A stretch of DNA of 34,575 nucleotides from Candidatus Eiseniibacteriota bacterium. GTDB lineage: Bacteria > Eisenbacteria > RBG-16-71-46. Below are positions 3,828-25,693 of the stretch, piece after piece. Made by a program: the position numbers and the translations under genes. The notes under the pieces were generated by a model. It saw nothing but the letters and a program-made list of their open reading frames with translations, ran no database searches and was not told where the DNA came from. Location of the stretch: assembly GCA_016223045.1 (NCBI GenBank), contig JACRPT010000118.1, forward strand, positions 1 through 34,575. Direction: 5' to 3'. Position 1 is the stretch's first letter; the number at the start of each line of letters is the position of its first letter.

Positions 3828-4570
3828 GGGACCAGGTTCCACGCCTCCAGCTCCGCCCGCGCGGGCTCGTCGGTGAGGTCGAGCCGGAGCGGCGTCACCG
3901 AGATCCAGCCCGCGTGCACGGAGTGGAAGTCGGTGCCGTCCAGCTCCTGCCATACCGGGTCCTCCCCGCCGATCCAGTAGTAGTCGCGGCCGCGCGGGTC
4001 CACCTTCTTGACCAGGGTGTCGCGGTAGACCCGGCTGCCGAGCCGGGTGAGGCGCACGCCCCGCACCTCGCCCCACGGCCGGTGCGGCAGGTTGACGTTG
4101 AGCAGCTGGCGGCGCGGCAGCCCGCGCTCGATCACCTGGCGCGCGAGCCGCGCGATGAAGCGCGCGGGCTCGACGAAGTCGGCGGCCTCGCGCGTGGCCA
4201 GCGACGCCGCGATCGCGGGCGCGCCCTGGATGGAGCCCTCGATGGCGGCGGCCACGGTGCCCGAGTAGAACACGTCCTCGCCCATGTTGGGGCCGTGGTT
4301 GATGCCGGAGATCACCAGGTCGGGCGGCCGGTCCAGCAGCCCGTACCACGCGGTGACCACGCAGTCGGTGGGGGTGCCGTCCACGCTGTAGACGTCGGGC
4401 TCGTGGGTGTGGATGCGGAACGGCCGGTGCAGCGTGAGCGAGTGCGAGGTCGCGCTCTGGTCGCGGTCGGGCGCCACGATCACCACCCGCCCGAGCGGCG
4501 CCAGCGCCTCCTTCAGCCGCGCGAGCGCGGGCGCGAAGATGCCGTCGTCGTTGGTGATCAGGATGTTCAT
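3824..4570 (-). CDS. surE: 5'/3'-nucleotidase SurE
   Basis: SurE is a metal-dependent nucleoside monophosphate phosphatase of stationary-phase survival. The 248-residue protein opens MNILITNDDG with the metal-binding NDDG at 7-10, followed by the serine ligand region (DQSATSHSLT) and SGINHGPNMGEDVFYSGTVA, all family hallmarks. The start ATG at 4568-4570 overlaps the preceding glycosyltransferase stop (ATGA), and the end overlaps the pcm start, so all three are translationally coupled. Length and residues look intact. Confidence 0.96.
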   Translation of the reverse strand: MNILITNDDGIFAPALARLKEALAPLGRVVIVAPDRDQSATSHSLTLHRPFRIHTHEPDVYSVDGTPTDCVVTAWYGLLDRPPDLVISGINHGPNMGEDVFYSGTVAAAIEGSIQGAPAIAASLATREAADFVEPARFIARLARQVIERGLPRRQLLNVNLPHRPWGEVRGVRLTRLGSRVYRDTLVKKVDPRGRDYYWIGGEDPVWQELDGTDFHSVHAGWISVTPLRLDLTDEPARAELEAWNLVP

Positions 4571-13057: not shown

Positions 13058-15025
13058 TCATCGGGTCACCGCGGCTCGCGCGGTGAGGGAGCGACCGCCC
13101 CGCCTGAGCCGGAGCCAGTAGAGCCCGACCGGCACCTGCTCCTCCAGGCGCATCAGGTGCTGCCCGGGGCCGAGCGAGCCCACCTCGCGCGCGGCGATCC
13201 GCCGCCCCGCCACGTCCAGCAACTCGAGCATCGCGGGCGAGCCGTCGGGGAGCGAGAACGAAACCTGCAACGGCCCGGTCGCCGGGTTCGGTCGCAGGCC
13301 CGCGAGCGCCAGCCGGTAGCCCGCCGGCACCTCCACCCAGGTCTCGGCGGTGAAGGCCTCGCTGGTACCCGCGCCGATTCCCAGCCGGTAGGCATAGCGG
13401 GTGCCGGCGGCGACCGTGCGGTCCGCGAAGACGAGGTTGCCCGTGCCGTCAGCGCTGACCGTCCCGAGCCGCAGCCAGTCGGTCTGTGAATCACGGCGGT
13501 AGACCGTGGCGGTCAGGCTCGCGCCGGCGCCCGCGAACCAGCGCAGCGTCACCGCGGTCGGCGTCGCTTCGACGCTCGCCAGCGACAGGTTCACCGGCAC
13601 CGGGCCGTCGGGCACGAGTTTCTGCGCGTAGATGTCGTACCAGGTCAAGTCGTCTCGCCCGTCATCCCACGAGACGATCGCCCCGCCCGAGCCGTCCGGG
13701 ACGATCACCGGATGCTGCTGCTCGCTCGGGGTGGAGGCCAGCGGGGTGCCCTCGGCGGTCCAGCCCGGGGCCGGCAGCCCGGAAGCCCCCAGGTGCTGGG
13801 CATAGACCTTGTAGTAGTCCACCAGGTTGGTGAACGACACGTACGCCCCGCCCTGGCCATCGGTGGCCAGCCCCAGGTCGGACTGGAAGCCGTAGGCGGT
13901 GCTCACCCTGAGCCCGTTCTCCGGCCAGCCGGGCAGCCGCTGGCCATCGGGGCCGACGCGGATCGCATAGGCCGCAGCGTAGTAGACCGCCCGGTAGTCC
14001 ACCCAGGCGGCGATCAGCCCGCCCTGCCCGTCGGGGCAGGCCACCGAGGCCCACTGGGTGTTGGAGGCGGTGCAGAGCGGCAGGCCGTCGGCGGGCCAGC
14101 CGGGAGCCAGGACCCCGGAAGCGGTGACGCGCTGGGCGTAGATGTCGAAGTCGGCCTGGGTGGCGCCGCGCCGCCAGTCGTCCCACACCGCGTAGGCCCC
14201 ACCGGCGCCGTCACTCACCAGAGCGGTCAACCCCGGGCCCTGGGGGACGGTGCAGAGCACTACCCCTTCGGCCGGCCAGCCGGCCGCGACCTCGCCGGAG
14301 AACGTCAGATGCTGGAGCACGGCCTGCGCCCAGGTGGCGGTCGCATCCAAGAACCTGGTCCAGCCGACGAACACGCCGCCGCTGCCGTCGGCCAGCACCT
14401 CTGCCGCGTTCGAGTACGGCGAGGTCGGGGCCAGCGGGCGGCCGTCCACCGGCCAGCCGGGAGCAATCACGCCGCTGCCCAGCACGTGCTGCAGATAGGC
14501 AGCCGTGTTGCCTCGGAAGTCGGTCCAGCCGACGAACGCCCCGCCTGCCCCATCGCTGGCCACATTGCTGGCGCCCTGCTGGCCCGACGCCGCGCACGCG
14601 GGCACCCCGCACGCCGGCCAGCCCGGGGCCAGCGCTCCCGATGCGGTCACGCGCTGGATGTAGATGTCACCGGTGTCCTTGCGGTTATCGATCCACGTCA
14701 TCAACACGCCGCCGCTGTCGTCCGGGGTAATGGACTCGGGGAACTGGGCCCGCCGCGCGTCGCAGATCAGCAGGCCGTTGGCAGGCCACCCCGGCGCGAT
14801 CTCCCCCGAGGCCGTCACGTGCTGGAGATAGATGTCGCGGTAGGGATCGGCACGATCGTCCGTCCAGGCCACGTAGGCGCCCCCGCTCCCGTCGGGGGCG
14901 ATCTGTGGATTGGTCTCGTCGTAGAGTGCGCGCGAAAGCGCCACCCCGTTAGGGGTCCAGGCGCGGGCGGGGAACGGCAGGAAGCAGGCGGCGAAGAACA
15001 AGGCGGCACAGGCACGGATGCGCAT
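13058..15025 (-). CDS. Secreted repeat protein with FlgD-Ig/type-IX-like C-terminal domain
   Basis: This 655-residue protein begins with a Sec signal peptide (MRIRACAALFFAACFLPFPA, cleaved near residue 22). About residues 30-475 hold seven units of 45-62 residues, each with a DGSGGxxVxW.D.R strand and ending in ASGxxAPGWPAxGxxLC; an eighth DGSGG strand closes the set, suggesting a beta-propeller. A fibronectin-like domain follows (about 480-570), then a C-terminal domain (RPNPATGPLQVSFSLPDG ... GLYWLRL) of the FlgD-Ig / type IX sorting kind. Start ATG 15023-15025 has GGAGG seven bases upstream. It is divergent from the oxidase-like gene, which ends in the same kind of domain. Likely surface or secreted; no catalytic motif seen. 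Confidence 0.85.
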   Translation of the reverse strand: MRIRACAALFFAACFLPFPARAWTPNGVALSRALYDETNPQIAPDGSGGAYVAWTDDRADPYRDIYLQHVTASGEIAPGWPANGLLICDARRAQFPESITPDDSGGVLMTWIDNRKDTGDIYIQRVTASGALAPGWPACGVPACAASGQQGASNVASDGAGGAFVGWTDFRGNTAAYLQHVLGSGVIAPGWPVDGRPLAPTSPYSNAAEVLADGSGGVFVGWTRFLDATATWAQAVLQHLTFSGEVAAGWPAEGVVLCTVPQGPGLTALVSDGAGGAYAVWDDWRRGATQADFDIYAQRVTASGVLAPGWPADGLPLCTASNTQWASVACPDGQGGLIAAWVDYRAVYYAAAYAIRVGPDGQRLPGWPENGLRVSTAYGFQSDLGLATDGQGGAYVSFTNLVDYYKVYAQHLGASGLPAPGWTAEGTPLASTPSEQQHPVIVPDGSGGAIVSWDDGRDDLTWYDIYAQKLVPDGPVPVNLSLASVEATPTAVTLRWFAGAGASLTATVYRRDSQTDWLRLGTVSADGTGNLVFADRTVAAGTRYAYRLGIGAGTSEAFTAETWVEVPAGYRLALAGLRPNPATGPLQVSFSLPDGSPAMLELLDVAGRRIAAREVGSLGPGQHLMRLEEQVPVGLYWLRLRRGGRSLTARAAVTR

Positions 15026-15135
15026 GACGAGCCTCCAAGACCCCCCGAGGTTATCACCCCGACAATCGCTCCGGAACACGAAACCCGCGCTATGGCCCCG
15101 CTCCCGCTTCCCCCCTGCAATCTGGAAGAACCCTG

Positions 15136-15164
15136 TTGACATATGGAGGGCGGTGGGGCCATGA
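15136..15164 (+). promoter_or_regulatory. Possible promoter of the oxidase-like gene
   Basis: A perfect TTGACA lies at 15136-15141; at 17-18 bp spacing the -10 would be CCATGA/CATGAA, a weak match. The divergent intergenic region (15026-15214) shows no better candidate on either strand. Confidence 0.3.
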
Positions 15165-15214
15165 ATCCCCCGTCCCTCGGACGCACGTTCCTTCCCCCAC
15201 ACCAGGAGGCCGCC

Positions 15215-17044
15215 ATGCGTCCCCACCGCATTGCCTCGTCCCGCCCGAGCTGTTTCCCGCGGCGCTCACTCATGCTCGCGTTCGTTCTGGTGCTGGCGCT
15301 GATGCCGGCGCTCGCCGCCGGGCAGTCTCCACCCCGACCCGCCAACCCTGGCCGCTGGACCGCCACGAAACCCTGGGGCGCCACCGCCGTGCACTTGAGC
15401 CTGCTGCGCGGCGACCTGACGCCACACCGCCGGGTGCACAGCCAGGTGCTGTGGTGGGACGAGCCGACCCCGAGCTTCCAGTGCGGGCTGTGGGCCTGGA
15501 AGCCGACCACCGACGACTGCGCCAGCTCGCTGGAGTCGAACCTGACCGCGTTGAGCGTGCCGGCACCGCCGCGGAACATCTTCTGCGGCGCCCACACTGC
15601 GCTCGCGGACGGCAACCTGTTCGTGGTCGGCGGGCACGAGAACGTCACCATCGGCACCACCCAGGCGCTGATCTTCAATCGGGCGACGCGGACCTGGGCG
15701 GTGGTGGACTCGATGAGCCAGCGACGCTACTACGCGACCGCCACCACGCTGCCGGACGGGCGGGTGCTGGCGAGTTCGGGCACGCAGTACCAGCACCTGG
15801 TGTTCTTCGGCGGCCGCACCGACGGCGACACGTTGCGCAACAGCGTGGACCGCTTCCAGCTCCTGTCGAAGGGCGCATGGGACTTGCCGGTCAATCCGCG
15901 GCAGGGCCAGGTCGGCACCTCCTGGCCGGAGAAGCGCGAGGAGCACAGTCTGGCCAGCGTGCCCCGCGGGCCGGGGTTCGTCTTCGGCGGCATGGATGCT
16001 TCGGGCAGGCCGCTGAACGACGCGTGGAGGCTGGATCGGACGGACTCCGACACCGCGCAGACCTACGCGTGGGCGAAGCTCGTGGTGAGCGGCACGGTGC
16101 CGGCGCGCAGGCTGCACGCCGCGGTGGCGCGGACCGAGATCACCTCGCATCCGGCATTCCCGCAGGTGATGTACGTCTTCGGGGGACGGGGGCAGACAGG
16201 ACCGCTGGGGGATCTTCAGAGGCTTCGATGGGAGTCGCCGTGGGGGTGGACCTGGACCGACTTGACCGACATGACCCAGGGCGCGCCCCCGGCGCCACGC
16301 TACGGCCACGCGGCGGCGTATGTGGATTCGCTGATGGTGCTCTGCGGCGGCAAGGACGCCGGCGGCCAGCTCGCCGACAGCCTGTGGGTGCTCTCGTTCC
16401 GCACCTCGCCGCCGAGCTGGATCCGCCCCACCATCATCTCGGCCACGCGGCCGAGCGCCCGCTACCTGCACGCCCTGGCCAACGATTCCGAACTGCGAAC
16501 ACGCGGCGGCAGCGAATGGGACCGCTTCTTCCTCTTCGGCGGGCGGCAGGCGCAGGAGCCCGACAGCCTGTCGAACGAGCTGTGGAACCTCTACCTCTCG
16601 CGCGACGGTCAGAGCGCTGCGTGGTTCCGCCTGAGCCCGACCGGCACCACGCCGGCGCCGCGCCGCCAGGCCACCATCGCCTACGAGAGGAACCGGGTGC
16701 TGATCTTCGGCGGCGACACCGGCGAGGCGCCGGACCCGGTGGTGTGGTCCGCCTGCCCGGACACCGAGCAGTACGTGCCGCCCTCCTGGGTCCCCCTCGC
16801 CTCCTCCAGTCTGAGCCTGCGGGGCCACACGGCCTTCTACGATGCGCGCGACCTCGTCGCGCGCGTGCCCGAGACCTACAACCCGGTGGCGAACCACTGG
16901 TCGCGGCTGGACGGGGCGCCGAAGCTGCAGGCGCTCTACCCGTTCACATTCGTGGACACGACCGGCCACCGCGTGTTCAACGCCGGACCGACGTCGAACG
17001 GATACCAGACCTACCGGCTGGACCTGGACGCGCCGGGCTGGTAG
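15215..17044 (+). CDS. Glyoxal/galactose-oxidase-like protein, N-terminal part (cut by in-frame TAG)
   Basis: Residues 1-609 of a larger protein. ATG 15215 has AGGAGG at 15204-15209 and is followed by a basic region and signal peptide (LMLAFVLVLALMPALAAG). Residues about 120-190 match the copper radical oxidase propeller: FCGAHTALADGNLFVVGGH carries the cofactor Cys (Cys124) and RRYYATATTLPDGRVL the cofactor Tyr (Tyr173). Residues about 191-545 are a second kelch propeller (repeated FGG motifs with YGHAAAYV-type strands) inserted into the oxidase. Oxidase sequence resumes at VPETYNPVANHWSRL and LYPFTFVDTTGHRVFNAG, then stops at TAG 17042-17044. The same frame continues at once with the rest of the fold, so this is half of one gene, not a natural end. 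Confidence 0.85.
   Translation: MRPHRIASSRPSCFPRRSLMLAFVLVLALMPALAAGQSPPRPANPGRWTATKPWGATAVHLSLLRGDLTPHRRVHSQVLWWDEPTPSFQCGLWAWKPTTDDCASSLESNLTALSVPAPPRNIFCGAHTALADGNLFVVGGHENVTIGTTQALIFNRATRTWAVVDSMSQRRYYATATTLPDGRVLASSGTQYQHLVFFGGRTDGDTLRNSVDRFQLLSKGAWDLPVNPRQGQVGTSWPEKREEHSLASVPRGPGFVFGGMDASGRPLNDAWRLDRTDSDTAQTYAWAKLVVSGTVPARRLHAAVARTEITSHPAFPQVMYVFGGRGQTGPLGDLQRLRWESPWGWTWTDLTDMTQGAPPAPRYGHAAAYVDSLMVLCGGKDAGGQLADSLWVLSFRTSPPSWIRPTIISATRPSARYLHALANDSELRTRGGSEWDRFFLFGGRQAQEPDSLSNELWNLYLSRDGQSAAWFRLSPTGTTPAPRRQATIAYERNRVLIFGGDTGEAPDPVVWSACPDTEQYVPPSWVPLASSSLSLRGHTAFYDARDLVARVPETYNPVANHWSRLDGAPKLQALYPFTFVDTTGHRVFNAGPTSNGYQTYRLDLDAPGW
17042..17044 (+). other. In-frame amber codon interrupting the oxidase-like gene
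   Basis: TAG follows a TGG codon and precedes CCG TAT CCG. The frame before (from 15215) and after (to 19450) is identical, and both sides are one domain. TAG is used as a normal stop elsewhere here (csp, the cyclophilin gene), so reassignment is unlikely. Either a nonsense mutation, a sequence error, or an unproven readthrough site. Confidence 0.9.
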
Positions 17045-17110
17045 CCGTATCCGGCGTCGGGCTTCGACCAGCTCGACGGCGGGGCGGCGGTCCTGTACCG
17101 GCCGGGGCGG

Positions 17111-19450
17111 GTGATGAAGTGCGGCAGCAAGTTCGTCACCCCGGCGCGCGGGCTCACGGCCTCGCTCGACCTCACGAGCGAGGGCTCTCCGTGGGTGGCC
17201 GCGGTGGACACCATGCTGGGACGCACCTTCCACAACCTCACGATGCTGCCGACCGGCGAGGTGATCGCCACCGGCGGGCGGCTCGGCGAGGGCATGACGC
17301 CGGTCAACCGGCCGGAGATCTGGGATCCCGACTACAGCGACGGCAGCGGCGCTCGCGGCTACTGGTACGGCCGCTTCGCCGCCGACACGCTGGCCCCGAG
17401 CCCGGTCGCCCGGGGGGAGCACTCGACCGCGATCGTGCTCCCCGACGGACGCGTGCTCGCGGCCGGCGGCTGCAACGAGGAGGAGCACCCGGACCCCAAC
17501 CGGATGGAGGCCAACCTCTACTGTCCGCCCTACCTGTTCAGCGATGCGGCGGCGACCGTGCCGGCGGTGCGGCCGCGGCTCTCCGGGGTGCAGGAGTTCA
17601 TCGCCTACGGGCAGGAGTTCGACCTGGCGAGCCCCGACTCGATCGCCCGTGCGGTGCTGATCCGGCCCGGCGCCACCACCCACGCCTTCAATCAGGACCA
17701 GCGCTGGGTGCCGCTGGCGCGCACCGGCGGAGCGAGCCCCTGCCTGCGCTTCCGCGCGCCGGCGAGCGCCAGCAACGCGCCGCCCGGGGACTACCTCCTG
17801 TTCGTGCTGAGCCCGCAGAACGTGCCTTCCATCGCCGAGTGGGTGCGGCTCGGCAGCACCCCGAGCAGCGACCAGGTGTGCGACGTGCTGGCGCCGCAGG
17901 TGGTCTCGCTGCAGAAGACCTGCACGCGCGGCGAGTCGGCCGATCTCCGGTGGCTCTCGCCCCACGAGGATGGCACGGCGGGCGGGGCGGTGGTCAGCTA
18001 CGAGCTGCGCTACCGGCCGGGGCAGCCGATGAACACGGTGGACGACTTCCTCGACTACGGCACGCTGGTCACCGACGAGATTACCGGGCCCGCGCCGCCG
18101 GGGCCGGGCGTCTACGACAGCGTGACGGTGACCGGGCTCGTGCCGAACACCCCGTACTACTTCCGGCTGATGTACAAGGACGACGCCGGGAGCTACCGCA
18201 ACTGGACGTTGAGCAACCAGCTCACCTTCATCACCCGCTACCAGGTGTGCGGCGGCTCGGGGCTGACGGCGGGCGGCGGCAGCGGCGGCGGCGGATTCTC
18301 GCTGCGGCAGGCCGGGGCCGAGGGCACCAGCGCCGCCGGCGGGAGCTGGGGCGCCGGCAACTCGCTCTTGACCGGGGTGACCGATCGCACCGGGAGCGAC
18401 ACCTGGCGGCTGCCCACCGGGCCGCTGGCCGTGAACGGCCACCCGGCGACACGCCTCATCGTCTCGGACGCGCACTCGATGTCGCTGGCGCGCACCCGAC
18501 TGCTCGCGGTGGACCACGCGCCGGAGCTGGAGGCGTTCGCCTCGGGCGGCTCGTTCCTGCTCGGCACGACGCAGCCGGCGGCGTCGGTCACCGGCCCGGG
18601 TGGTGCGGAGCTGACCGCTCTGCTCACGGGCGCAGGCGAGACCTATCCGGGTCAGTACGGCGACACGCTGCGGGTGCAGCTTGCCGGCCCGGACACGAGG
18701 CCCGCGCTTCTCATCGAGAGCCGGGGCCCGAACCTGGTCCAGCCACCCGACTCCTCGGGCATCCTGATCCAGATCCCCGACGCCGAGGGCTGGCGCACGC
18801 TCACCCGTCACGTCCCGCGCGAGGGCTTCGACCGCTTCGTGCTCGACTCGACCGCGCAGACGCTCAGGCTCGTGTTCCTGGGCGAGCATGAGCTCGGCTA
18901 CGTCGGGCAGGTGAGCCGCGCCGCGGCCACGCCGACTGTCAGCGCCCTGTCGCTCGCTGGCGCCACCCAGTCGCGGCTCGGCAGCATCAGCCCGCTCACC
19001 GACAGCACGGGCTTCGACCTCCAGCCCGCCGACACGCTGGTGCTGGAGTTCGAGGACCACCCCCTCGAGCCGGGGCGTGCCCGCGACTGGTTCCTGGCGG
19101 TTGAAGGAAGCACGGCGAGCCTGCGGAGCGCGGGCTCCGCCCGGCTCGCGCCGGTGCGCGAGAGCGCGCCGCGCCGCTTCGCCCTCCACCAGAACCAGCC
19201 CAATCCGTTCGCGGGGACCGCCACCATCGGCTTCGACCTGCCGGCGGCGAGCGGCGTGCGGCTCGAGGTGTTCGACCTGCACGGACGCCGGGTGCAGACG
19301 CTGGCCAGAGGGCGCTACCCGGCGGGGCACCATAGGGTGGAGTGGGACGGTCGTGCCGCCGGCGGGGAGAGACTCGAGGCGGGAATCTACTTCTACCGAC
19401 TCATCGCCGGCCCGTTCCGCGGCGAGAGGAAGTTCGTGCTCTTGCCTTGA
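17111..19450 (+). CDS. Glyoxal/galactose-oxidase-like protein, C-terminal part, with FnIII and sorting domain
   Basis: Continuation of the preceding frame; GTG 17111 and ATG 17114 are the first possible restarts, with no good ribosome-binding site. It contains the rest of the oxidase propeller (MLPTGEVIATGG, HSTAIVLPDGRVLAAGG) and the DUF1929-type domain, including the copper-ligand segment TTHAFNQDQRWVPL and GDYLLFVLSPQNVPSIAEWV. Where the family has Tyr-His-Ser it reads Glu-His-Ser (Glu103, codon 17417-17419), losing the axial Tyr. A fibronectin III domain (about 255-375), a Gly-rich linker, a beta-rich region, and a FlgD-Ig / type IX-like C-terminal domain (about 695-779, ending GIYFYRLIAGPFRGERKFVL) follow. 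Undamaged after the TAG, suggesting a recent interruption or expression of the whole. Confidence 0.82.
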   Translation: MMKCGSKFVTPARGLTASLDLTSEGSPWVAAVDTMLGRTFHNLTMLPTGEVIATGGRLGEGMTPVNRPEIWDPDYSDGSGARGYWYGRFAADTLAPSPVARGEHSTAIVLPDGRVLAAGGCNEEEHPDPNRMEANLYCPPYLFSDAAATVPAVRPRLSGVQEFIAYGQEFDLASPDSIARAVLIRPGATTHAFNQDQRWVPLARTGGASPCLRFRAPASASNAPPGDYLLFVLSPQNVPSIAEWVRLGSTPSSDQVCDVLAPQVVSLQKTCTRGESADLRWLSPHEDGTAGGAVVSYELRYRPGQPMNTVDDFLDYGTLVTDEITGPAPPGPGVYDSVTVTGLVPNTPYYFRLMYKDDAGSYRNWTLSNQLTFITRYQVCGGSGLTAGGGSGGGGFSLRQAGAEGTSAAGGSWGAGNSLLTGVTDRTGSDTWRLPTGPLAVNGHPATRLIVSDAHSMSLARTRLLAVDHAPELEAFASGGSFLLGTTQPAASVTGPGGAELTALLTGAGETYPGQYGDTLRVQLAGPDTRPALLIESRGPNLVQPPDSSGILIQIPDAEGWRTLTRHVPREGFDRFVLDSTAQTLRLVFLGEHELGYVGQVSRAAATPTVSALSLAGATQSRLGSISPLTDSTGFDLQPADTLVLEFEDHPLEPGRARDWFLAVEGSTASLRSAGSARLAPVRESAPRRFALHQNQPNPFAGTATIGFDLPAASGVRLEVFDLHGRRVQTLARGRYPAGHHRVEWDGRAAGGERLEAGIYFYRLIAGPFRGERKFVLLP

Positions 19451-19469
19451 CGCCGCGCGGGCCGCGGCG
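19451..19469. terminator. Hairpin between convergent genes
   Basis: CGCCGCG (19451-19457) and CGCGGCG (19463-19469) form a 7-bp stem with a 5-base loop directly after the oxidase stop codon; the opposing gene ends at 19474. No T-run, so terminator function is tentative. Confidence 0.4.
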
Positions 19470-19473
19470 GGGC

Positions 19474-20853
19474 TCAGCCCTGCGCGAGCCAGGCCGAGGT
19501 CGCGAGCAGGAAACGGTCGGCGTCCGAGTGGACCGACATGCCGGCGCGCTTCTCGGCGAATGGGGGGGCCGGGGGCTGGCCGCCGCTCTCCTGCCACACC
19601 GCCTCCCACAGCGTCGCCAGCCGCCGCCGCACCGGCTCGAAGGCCGCGAGCGTGCAGGTGGTGAGCACGAGCACCGTGTCCGGCGCGGGCCGGCACAGCC
19701 GGTCGGTCCCGCGCAACTGGTCCGGGAGCCGGGCGCACAGCAGGTCCAGCGCGCGGGGCCCGCCCGGAAACTCGAAGCGGTGGACGGCGAAGGAGAGGCC
19801 GTCACGCTTGTTGCGCTCGACCGCCAGGTCGAGGTCGCAGCGGAACGCCTCGGGGTCGAGCCAGCCCTGGCGGTCCTCGGGGACCAGCGGGAAGGCGGGC
19901 GCGGCCTGCGCGCGGTCGCGCTCGTCCCACGCGGAGCGCAGCTCCTCGACCGTCTTCTGCCAGGTGGTCCAGCCGGAAGCCGGATCGATGGCCGCGGCGG
20001 CGAGCACGCCGCGGCTGCGCGTGGTGCGGAACGGCCAGGCGCCCCACGCCTTGCCCACCTGGGGTCCGGTGAGGCGGGTCACCACCTGAGGGGCGTTGAG
20101 CTCGAGTGCCAGGCCGATGAGGCCGTGCAGCAGCGGATCCTCGGCGCCCACCCGCGCCACGGTCTCGACCGCGCCGGCGCGGCCGGCGCGCAGCTCGGCG
20201 CCCTGCGCGCCGGTGTCCGCCACCAGGCCGGCCAGCGCGTGCTCGAGCCCACCGCGGTCCTCGAGCGAGGGGAAGGTGTTCAGGTCGGGCGCCGGCGGCC
20301 CCGGTCGTCCGGTGGGGACCAGCGGCTGCGGCGCCGTCGGGGCGTCGGGGGCGACATCCGGCAGCGCGTGCTCGACGATGGCGGCGAGGTCCCCGCCCAG
20401 CGTGGTCTCGAGCGCGGCGGCGTGGAGCGCGAGCGGGGCCTCGACCGCGGGCGTATGCGCGTGCGCCAGGTCCGGGCCATGCGCGAACGCCTCGGGGCTC
20501 ACGCACGGCGTACCGAGCGCGAGCAGCAGGCCCTCGACCTGGGTGCGCCGCGGGCTCCGCTCGCTGACGATGGCGAGGTCGAAGATCTCGCGCGTCAGGT
20601 CGGCGAGGTCGGTGGAGACCGGCAGGTCGCAGAGCTCCGCCATGCGCAGGCCGGGGTCGCGGGCCTGCTCGCCGGACACCAGGCGCACCGAGATCTCGGG
20701 ACGCGCCAGCAGCTCCGGCAGCAGGTCGGCATCCTGCCAGTCGAAGTCGATGAGGACGATGCGGCGCGCGTGGGCGCCGGCGATGGTCTGGGCTGGTTCC
20801 ATGGGCAGAGGTCGGGGTCCGTTCCGCCCGCGCGATTGCAGGGACCATACCAT
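19474..20853 (-). CDS. Uncharacterised protein, possible GAF plus degenerate GGDEF domain
   Basis: A 459-residue protein I do not recognise as a named family. Residues about 30-130 look like an alpha/beta receiver- or NAD-type fold (RRIVLIDFDWQDADLLPELL). A Pro-rich linker (about 165-195) leads to a region (about 200-310) resembling a GAF sensor. The C-terminal part (CDLDLAVERNKRDGLSFAVH, then LPDQLRGTDRLCRPAPDTVLVL) follows the layout of a GGDEF domain but lacks the GGDEF motif, so it cannot be a normal diguanylate cyclase. No membrane segment. ATG 20853 has GGGAG five bases upstream; ATG 20802 is a shorter alternative favoured by codon use. It follows the PpiD-like gene on the same strand after a large hairpin. 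A cytoplasmic regulatory role is only inference. Confidence 0.7.
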   Translation of the reverse strand: MVWSLQSRGRNGPRPLPMEPAQTIAGAHARRIVLIDFDWQDADLLPELLARPEISVRLVSGEQARDPGLRMAELCDLPVSTDLADLTREIFDLAIVSERSPRRTQVEGLLLALGTPCVSPEAFAHGPDLAHAHTPAVEAPLALHAAALETTLGGDLAAIVEHALPDVAPDAPTAPQPLVPTGRPGPPAPDLNTFPSLEDRGGLEHALAGLVADTGAQGAELRAGRAGAVETVARVGAEDPLLHGLIGLALELNAPQVVTRLTGPQVGKAWGAWPFRTTRSRGVLAAAAIDPASGWTTWQKTVEELRSAWDERDRAQAAPAFPLVPEDRQGWLDPEAFRCDLDLAVERNKRDGLSFAVHRFEFPGGPRALDLLCARLPDQLRGTDRLCRPAPDTVLVLTTCTLAAFEPVRRRLATLWEAVWQESGGQPPAPPFAEKRAGMSVHSDADRFLLATSAWLAQG

Positions 20854-24952: not shown

Positions 24953-25693
24953 ATGCGACGATTCCTCATCGCGGGCGCTGCACTGCTCGCGCTCTCGGCC
25001 GCCGCCTCGGCGGATTCGACCTCGACCGCGGCTCCCGCCGCGGAAAGTCCCGCCCCGGTCAGGGTCGGGACCGCGGCGAAGCCCGCGGCGCAGCCGGCCG
25101 GCGCGAAGCCGGCGGCCGGCGCCGGGTCCGCGACCACCGCAGGCGAGCAGGTGGCGGTGTTCCAGACCGTCTGCGGCGACATCGTCGTCCGGCTCTTCGA
25201 CCAGGACGCGCCGAAGACCGTGGCCAACTTCCGCAAGCTGGTCCAGACCCACTTCTACGACGGCACGTACTTCTTCCGCGTGGTCCCCGGGTTCGTGATC
25301 CAGGGCGGCGACCCCAACACCCGGAACGCCGACCCCAACGACGATGGGGAGTTCGACATCGGCTACACCATCCCCGCCGAGATCAAGCTTCCGCACGGGC
25401 GCGGCGCCGTGGCCACCGCGCGCATGCCGGACGCGATCAACCCGAAGCGCGCCTCGAGCGGCGACCAGTTCTTCATCGACCTCGCGCCGCAGTCGGCGCT
25501 CGACCGCGGCGGCTACTCGGTGTTCGGACAGGTGATCGCGGGCATCGAGGCGGTGGACGCCATCGCGAAGCTGGCCCACGACCCGAACGTGTTCCAGGGC
25601 CGCCTCGGTCCAAACCCGCAGAGGAAGGCGCTGATCAAGCGCGCCTACCTGGCGCCGCTCGGCCAGTATCAGAAGGCGGGCGCGGCGAAGTAG
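24953..25693 (+). CDS. Secreted cyclophilin-type peptidyl-prolyl isomerase
   Basis: A 246-residue PPIase with a signal peptide (MRRFLIAGAALLALSAAASA) followed by a 35-residue Ala/Pro/Gly-rich linker, then a single cyclophilin domain from about residue 65. Family motifs are FFRVVPGFVIQGGDP, SGDQFFIDLAPQSALD and YSVFGQVIAGIEAVDAIA. The catalytic-site Arg is present in FFRVVPGF. It would act in the periplasm, complementing the parvulin-type foldase two genes away. ATG 24953 is chosen for its six-base spacing from AAGGAGG; an out-of-frame ATG lies at 24949. It ends in TAG and converges on the PPC-domain gene. Confidence 0.94.
   Translation: MRRFLIAGAALLALSAAASADSTSTAAPAAESPAPVRVGTAAKPAAQPAGAKPAAGAGSATTAGEQVAVFQTVCGDIVVRLFDQDAPKTVANFRKLVQTHFYDGTYFFRVVPGFVIQGGDPNTRNADPNDDGEFDIGYTIPAEIKLPHGRGAVATARMPDAINPKRASSGDQFFIDLAPQSALDRGGYSVFGQVIAGIEAVDAIAKLAHDPNVFQGRLGPNPQRKALIKRAYLAPLGQYQKAGAAK

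Follow-up and report, generated by a model that had tools for sequence, protein, structure and literature searches.

The window analysed here, a stretch of 34,575 nt, is the whole of contig C62 in an Eisenbacteria genome assembly of 3.88 Mb (164 contigs, 97.6% complete). On its plus strand a single continuous reading frame runs from an ATG at 15215 to a TGA at 19448-19450, with the TAG at 17042-17044 as its sole break. Translation of 15215-19450 gives 609 residues, the TAG directly after Trp609, and then 801 residues up to the TGA; the 1,410-codon gene proposed in the first-pass annotation is upheld as one gene, with the small correction that the TAG comes on top of the 1,410 sense codons. The codon score amounts to 0.23 per codon upstream of the TAG and 0.27 downstream, with GC3 of 0.92 and 0.94, respectively, and the probability that a random frame stays open over 801 codons at 74.5% GC is ~1e-5. 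A profile search of the genome also returned the oxidase gene as one frame with '1 TAG' within it. The features of the gene are the following:

15204-15209, plus strand: Shine-Dalgarno-like AGGAGG, 5 nt before the ATG at 15215, read directly
15215-15322, plus strand: putative N-terminal Sec-type signal peptide (residues 1-36), a basic n-region followed by LMLAFVLVLALMPALAAG, predicted from the translation
15323-15784, plus strand: galactose-oxidase propeller, first part (residues 37-190; Pfam Glyoxal_oxid_N / Kelch_6, NCBIfam GlxA over 147-190, alignment)
15584-15586, plus strand: Cys124, equivalent by motif to galactose oxidase Cys228 (homologue alignment)
15731-15733, plus strand: Tyr173, equivalent by motif to galactose oxidase Tyr272 (alignment)
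15785-16858, plus strand: inserted Kelch propeller, residues ~191-548 with approximate borders (Pfam Kelch over 243-508, gap size, AlphaFold2 model, Foldseek)
16859-17041, plus strand: oxidase propeller resumed (residues 549-609; alignment)
17042-17044, plus strand: in-frame TAG after the conserved Trp609, within the oxidase propeller (translation, alignments, profile search)
17045-17144, plus strand: stable RNA fold directly 3′ of the TAG, z about −2.9, absent from homologues and of doubtful significance
17045-17569, plus strand: oxidase propeller, last part (residues 611-785; phmmer match to galactose oxidase 2wq8/1gof)
17417-17419, plus strand: Glu735 (GAG) at the axial copper-ligand tyrosine, galactose oxidase Tyr495 (alignment, codon)
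17420-17422, plus strand: His736, equivalent to galactose oxidase His496 (phmmer match, alignment)
17570-17848, plus strand: GO-like E-set domain (PF09118, 2.5e-21)
17681-17683, plus strand: His823, equivalent to galactose oxidase His581 (phmmer match, alignment)
17924-18190, plus strand: fibronectin type III domain (PF00041)
19208-19393, plus strand: C-terminal FlgD_ig / type-IX-sorting-like tail (PF13860, 1.1e-9; TIGR04183, 0.0006, below cut-off)
19448-19450, plus strand: TGA, natural stop of the full frame (translation)

Upstream of the TAG, Pfam matches comprise Kelch repeats and a weak Glyoxal_oxid_N, while those downstream are GO-like E-set, fn3 and FlgD_ig. Pfam, PDB sequence matches and fold comparison agree on a galactose/glyoxal-oxidase fold plus accessory domains, as had been read earlier, and the oxidase propeller is followed by a GO-like E-set domain as in AA5/GlxA copper radical oxidases (PF09118, PDB matches, model fold). 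Because the TAG sits within the oxidase propeller, neither piece corresponds to a natural domain set. A scan for promoter and terminator consensus sequences found none. The neighbours of the oxidase gene, at 13058-15226 and 19474-20853 (minus strand), are coding-like and have no Pfam or NCBIfam match. An antisense frame at 15266-19738 (1,490 codons) was considered and rejected: it has no Pfam match, and a GC content of 74.5% commonly leaves long frames open on the antisense strand.

A comparison of relatives at the TAG, as the first-pass annotation had proposed, returned a sense codon in each of the 22 same-class homologues aligned (the alignment also includes the middle fragment of one broken copy) and in about 80 homologues from other phyla. 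This column, directly after the conserved Trp, is variable, being mostly Thr or Ser and also Gln, Ala, Gly and others, and is a stop in none. Homologues from the same family and class span the TAG position with open frames as long as 1,743 codons, and across 47 genomes of the class no full-length copy but that of the window has an internal stop. Thus the earlier joining of the two frames into one gene is borne out both by the single frame and by the homologues that read through with a sense codon. Two other disrupted loci were seen. In another Eisenbacteria genome, the middle of locus L046 (G013:C52, about 13500-17100) lies in a different frame from both ends, and this is another broken or mis-assembled copy; in Actinokineospora auranticolor, a galactose-oxidase homologue (L185) extends over two frames (ORFs at 3888 and 5569), apparently due to a frameshift.

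The copper ligands of galactose oxidase are Tyr272, Tyr495, His496 and His581, with Tyr272 cross-linked to Cys228 (PMC4072685, PMC4513209). In the window copy the positions of the thioether pair are kept as Cys124 and Tyr173 (by position only, from sequence alignment), and the copper-ligand histidines His736 and His823, both 3′ of the TAG, are also kept. The Tyr495 column holds Tyr in 100 homologues and Phe in one, and Glu in the window copy only; the axial tyrosine shared by AA5/GlxA oxidases is therefore missing here and present in the wider family. Both Tyr codons differ from GAG at two bases, so Glu735 cannot be put down to one miscalled base. Tyr495 is important in catalysis by galactose oxidase, so the window copy was probably already impaired or altered through Glu735. 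The same genome carries on C121 an intact paralogue (L049, G000:C121) that has all copper ligands and is 36% identical to the window copy over the core. One further homologue, L057 (G003:C259), carries Phe instead of the axial tyrosine and Ser in place of the thioether Cys, and its sequence suggests that it may be catalytically altered too.

The age of the break can be bounded from the rest of the frame. Under neutral drift, 1 to 1.5 further stops are expected per 1% divergence over 1,410 codons; the lack of a second in-frame stop sets a 95% bound of about 0.02-0.026 substitutions per site, if decay was neutral. Conserved columns were changed at 7 of 85 positions overall and at 2 of 42 after the TAG, similar to intact copies, and in no segment does the mean identity to homologues fall below the median. 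Because there is no second stop and the downstream conserved columns and identity are kept, the break is very recent, if it is real at all, in line with the earlier proposal, and a long-dead pseudogene is ruled out on the same three grounds. The earlier statement that no further damage follows the TAG holds for the reading frame, but not for the active site, where the copper-ligand tyrosine is replaced by Glu735. Inactivating lesions of the kind that mark pseudogenes are present (the TAG in the propeller and the lost axial tyrosine), whereas relaxed constraint was not found elsewhere in the frame.

One alternative to a recent inactivation is a genetic code in which TAG specifies an amino acid; the open frame is all that speaks for this, whereas the genome encodes an intact release factor 1 (508.9 bits versus a cut-off of 423), the neighbouring cyclophilin gene (24953-25693) terminates in TAG, none of the ARAGORN-recognised tRNAs has a CUA anticodon (42 tRNA matches in the genome) and PylS is absent from the genome. 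One weak tRNA match that ARAGORN did not recognise (L102) is, by eye, a tRNA with a CAT anticodon. Both reassignment and pyrrolysine are ruled out by release factor 1, the tRNA set and the absence of PylS, so that we give reassignment practically no credence, and the earlier reading of TAG as an ordinary stop is confirmed. A single ancestral frame is interrupted by a stop codon of normal meaning, at a position where homologues have a sense codon. Two functional genes, the first for a Kelch protein and the second initiated at GTG 17111 or ATG 17114, could be imagined from the start codons that lie shortly 3′ of the TAG behind a G-rich stretch. Yet the cut falls within a single propeller, a signal peptide is missing from the downstream part, and none of the aligned homologues begins or terminates at the TAG position. 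A natural end at this point in relatives, with a separate downstream gene, would have spoken against one gene; the homologue alignments and the profile search of 47 genomes of the class gave the opposite result and rule out two natural genes, an arrangement that we regard as very improbable.

The two remaining alternatives leave the gene intact or partly so. Apart from the lost Tyr735, constraint 3′ of the TAG looks normal, which weighs against inactivation in general and fits a very recent loss, an error or readthrough. The contig comes from a metagenome assembly, and the TAG might reflect an error in assembly or consensus calling, or a base from a minority strain, with the gene intact in most cells: the assembly is fragmented (164 contigs), the rest of the frame looks intact and one base would suffice. 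Such an error would however have replaced a base, rather than inserted or deleted one, in a homopolymer-free context, and miscalled substitutions in a consensus are uncommon at normal coverage; moreover, the independent change at Tyr735, two bases from Tyr, already sets the window copy apart. We therefore consider an error unlikely, while giving it more weight than any other alternative. Readthrough at a useful frequency, perhaps aided by a hairpin 3′ of the TAG, would yield the full-length protein besides the truncated one. A stop tolerated in this way is best supported by the RNA fold at 17045-17144, the strongest in the gene: these 100 nt are more stable than shuffled sequences (z −2.96) and than all 69 other windows of the gene, and among 23 homologues with a sense codon the mean z is 0.1 and none reaches −2.9. 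Constraint downstream of the TAG is also intact. Against this, the fold is a single after-the-fact result of about 1 in 70, stops are absent from homologues at the TAG position, release factor 1 is present, a suppressor tRNA and PylS were not found in the genome, and a full-length product would still be without the copper-ligand tyrosine. As a readthrough signal the fold is suggestive and leaves the main reading unchanged; we judge readthrough improbable.

The window gene is thus likely to be a recently nonsense-inactivated copy of a large secreted copper-radical-oxidase-like protein. If so, the TAG would be a real base in the organism, and ribosomes would stop there within the oxidase propeller and release a secreted fragment made of the signal peptide, part of the oxidase propeller and the Kelch propeller. 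Such a fragment would be without His736, His823, the E-set domain and the C-terminal tail, and presumably without oxidase activity. Loss of function may have been tolerated because the copper-ligand tyrosine may already have been replaced (Glu735) and because an intact paralogue is encoded on C121.

The oxidase fold recognised in the first-pass annotation is correct, but a second complete propeller inside it had been overlooked. The oxidase propeller is interrupted near the active site, after the Tyr173 strand, by a ~350-residue Kelch propeller with its own repeats. An AlphaFold2 model of the core, in which the TAG was set as Gln (an arbitrary placeholder), has pLDDT 87.2 and pTM 0.86, and Foldseek with this model returned GlxA (E 8.7e-27) and galactose oxidases first, followed by separate Kelch propellers. 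No more than 18 residues separate the flanks of the insert in 79 homologues from other phyla, whereas they are 360-382 residues apart, with a Kelch domain between them, in the Eisenbacteria loci JACRIW010000085.1 (G013 C61), JANYBS010000076.1 (G018 C117) and JAHFBW010000013.1 (G017 C98). In a tree of the oxidase parts alone, all 21 insert-bearing copies, which come from Eisenbacteria only, are separated from the rest by a branch with support 100; the insert is absent from the 80 other sequences, and the insert-less L047 and L059 from the wider class group among other phyla. Because the insert-bearing copies form one group with support 100, a single insertion is the simplest history, and the Kelch insertion apparently arose once. 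Kelch segments related to the insert also lie outside any oxidase in the same family of genomes (G000:C163:26970-27761 and G019:C232:11503-12258), and could point to its source.

The insert occupies the loop after the Tyr272 strand, which carries residue 290 in galactose oxidase and whose motif is recognisable in the phmmer alignment, and from this position it would cover the active site. Intact members would be extracellular copper-radical oxidases in which a second propeller, of Kelch type, sits on top of the active-site face or next to it. About a dozen loci of the family occur in genome G018 (contigs C51, C54, C58, C93, C110, C117, C134, C140, C195, C200, C203, C208 and C232), several at contig ends and two of them, L037 and L038, close copies; this number of matching places suggests real use of the family. 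We consider it about evenly balanced that these genes form an Eisenbacteria-only oxidase subfamily in which a Kelch propeller was inserted once and caps or gates the active site, and of which the window member has lost its tyrosine and been broken by a nonsense mutation. A literature search of limited coverage found no description of a Kelch insertion in galactose oxidase or of such oxidases in Eisenbacteria, and to our knowledge the phylum Candidatus Eisenbacteria is represented by metagenome assemblies only. As an instance of gene decay the stop codon is ordinary; the nested-propeller oxidase family of Eisenbacteria is the part worth following. A propeller within a propeller beside a copper-radical site would, if true, be an unusual route to a new substrate-binding or gating surface, and the window copy would be a natural example of active-site loss together with a nonsense mutation.

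Among known systems, the closest point of reference is GlxA, the Streptomyces radical copper oxidase (NCBIfam NF052501; PDB 4unm, 5lqi, 5lxz), which has the same oxidase propeller plus E-set domain; the window copy keeps the corresponding cofactor and ligand positions, as Cys124, Tyr173, His736 and His823. GlxA lacks the ~350-residue Kelch insert, the fn3 domain and the FlgD-like tail, all present in the window gene, which differs further by a Glu for the axial Tyr and by the internal stop and scores far below the 800-bit GlxA cut-off (74.6 and 45.7). With fungal galactose oxidase and glyoxal oxidase (AA5; PDB 1gof, 2wq8, 9n3u), to which its C-terminal half aligns (9e-28), the window protein has the copper-ligand layout in common (ligands from PMC4072685, PMC4513209), yet it carries the Kelch insert after the Tyr272 strand and Glu735 at the Tyr495 position. 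The insert itself matches eukaryotic-type Kelch propellers, namely the KLHDC2/KLHL20 Kelch domains (PF24681, 8.9e-45), and the core model matches KLHL12 (Foldseek, target TM 0.83); unlike KLHDC2, KLHL12 and LZTR1, the Kelch propeller of the window gene is nested in another propeller, in what would be a secreted bacterial protein.
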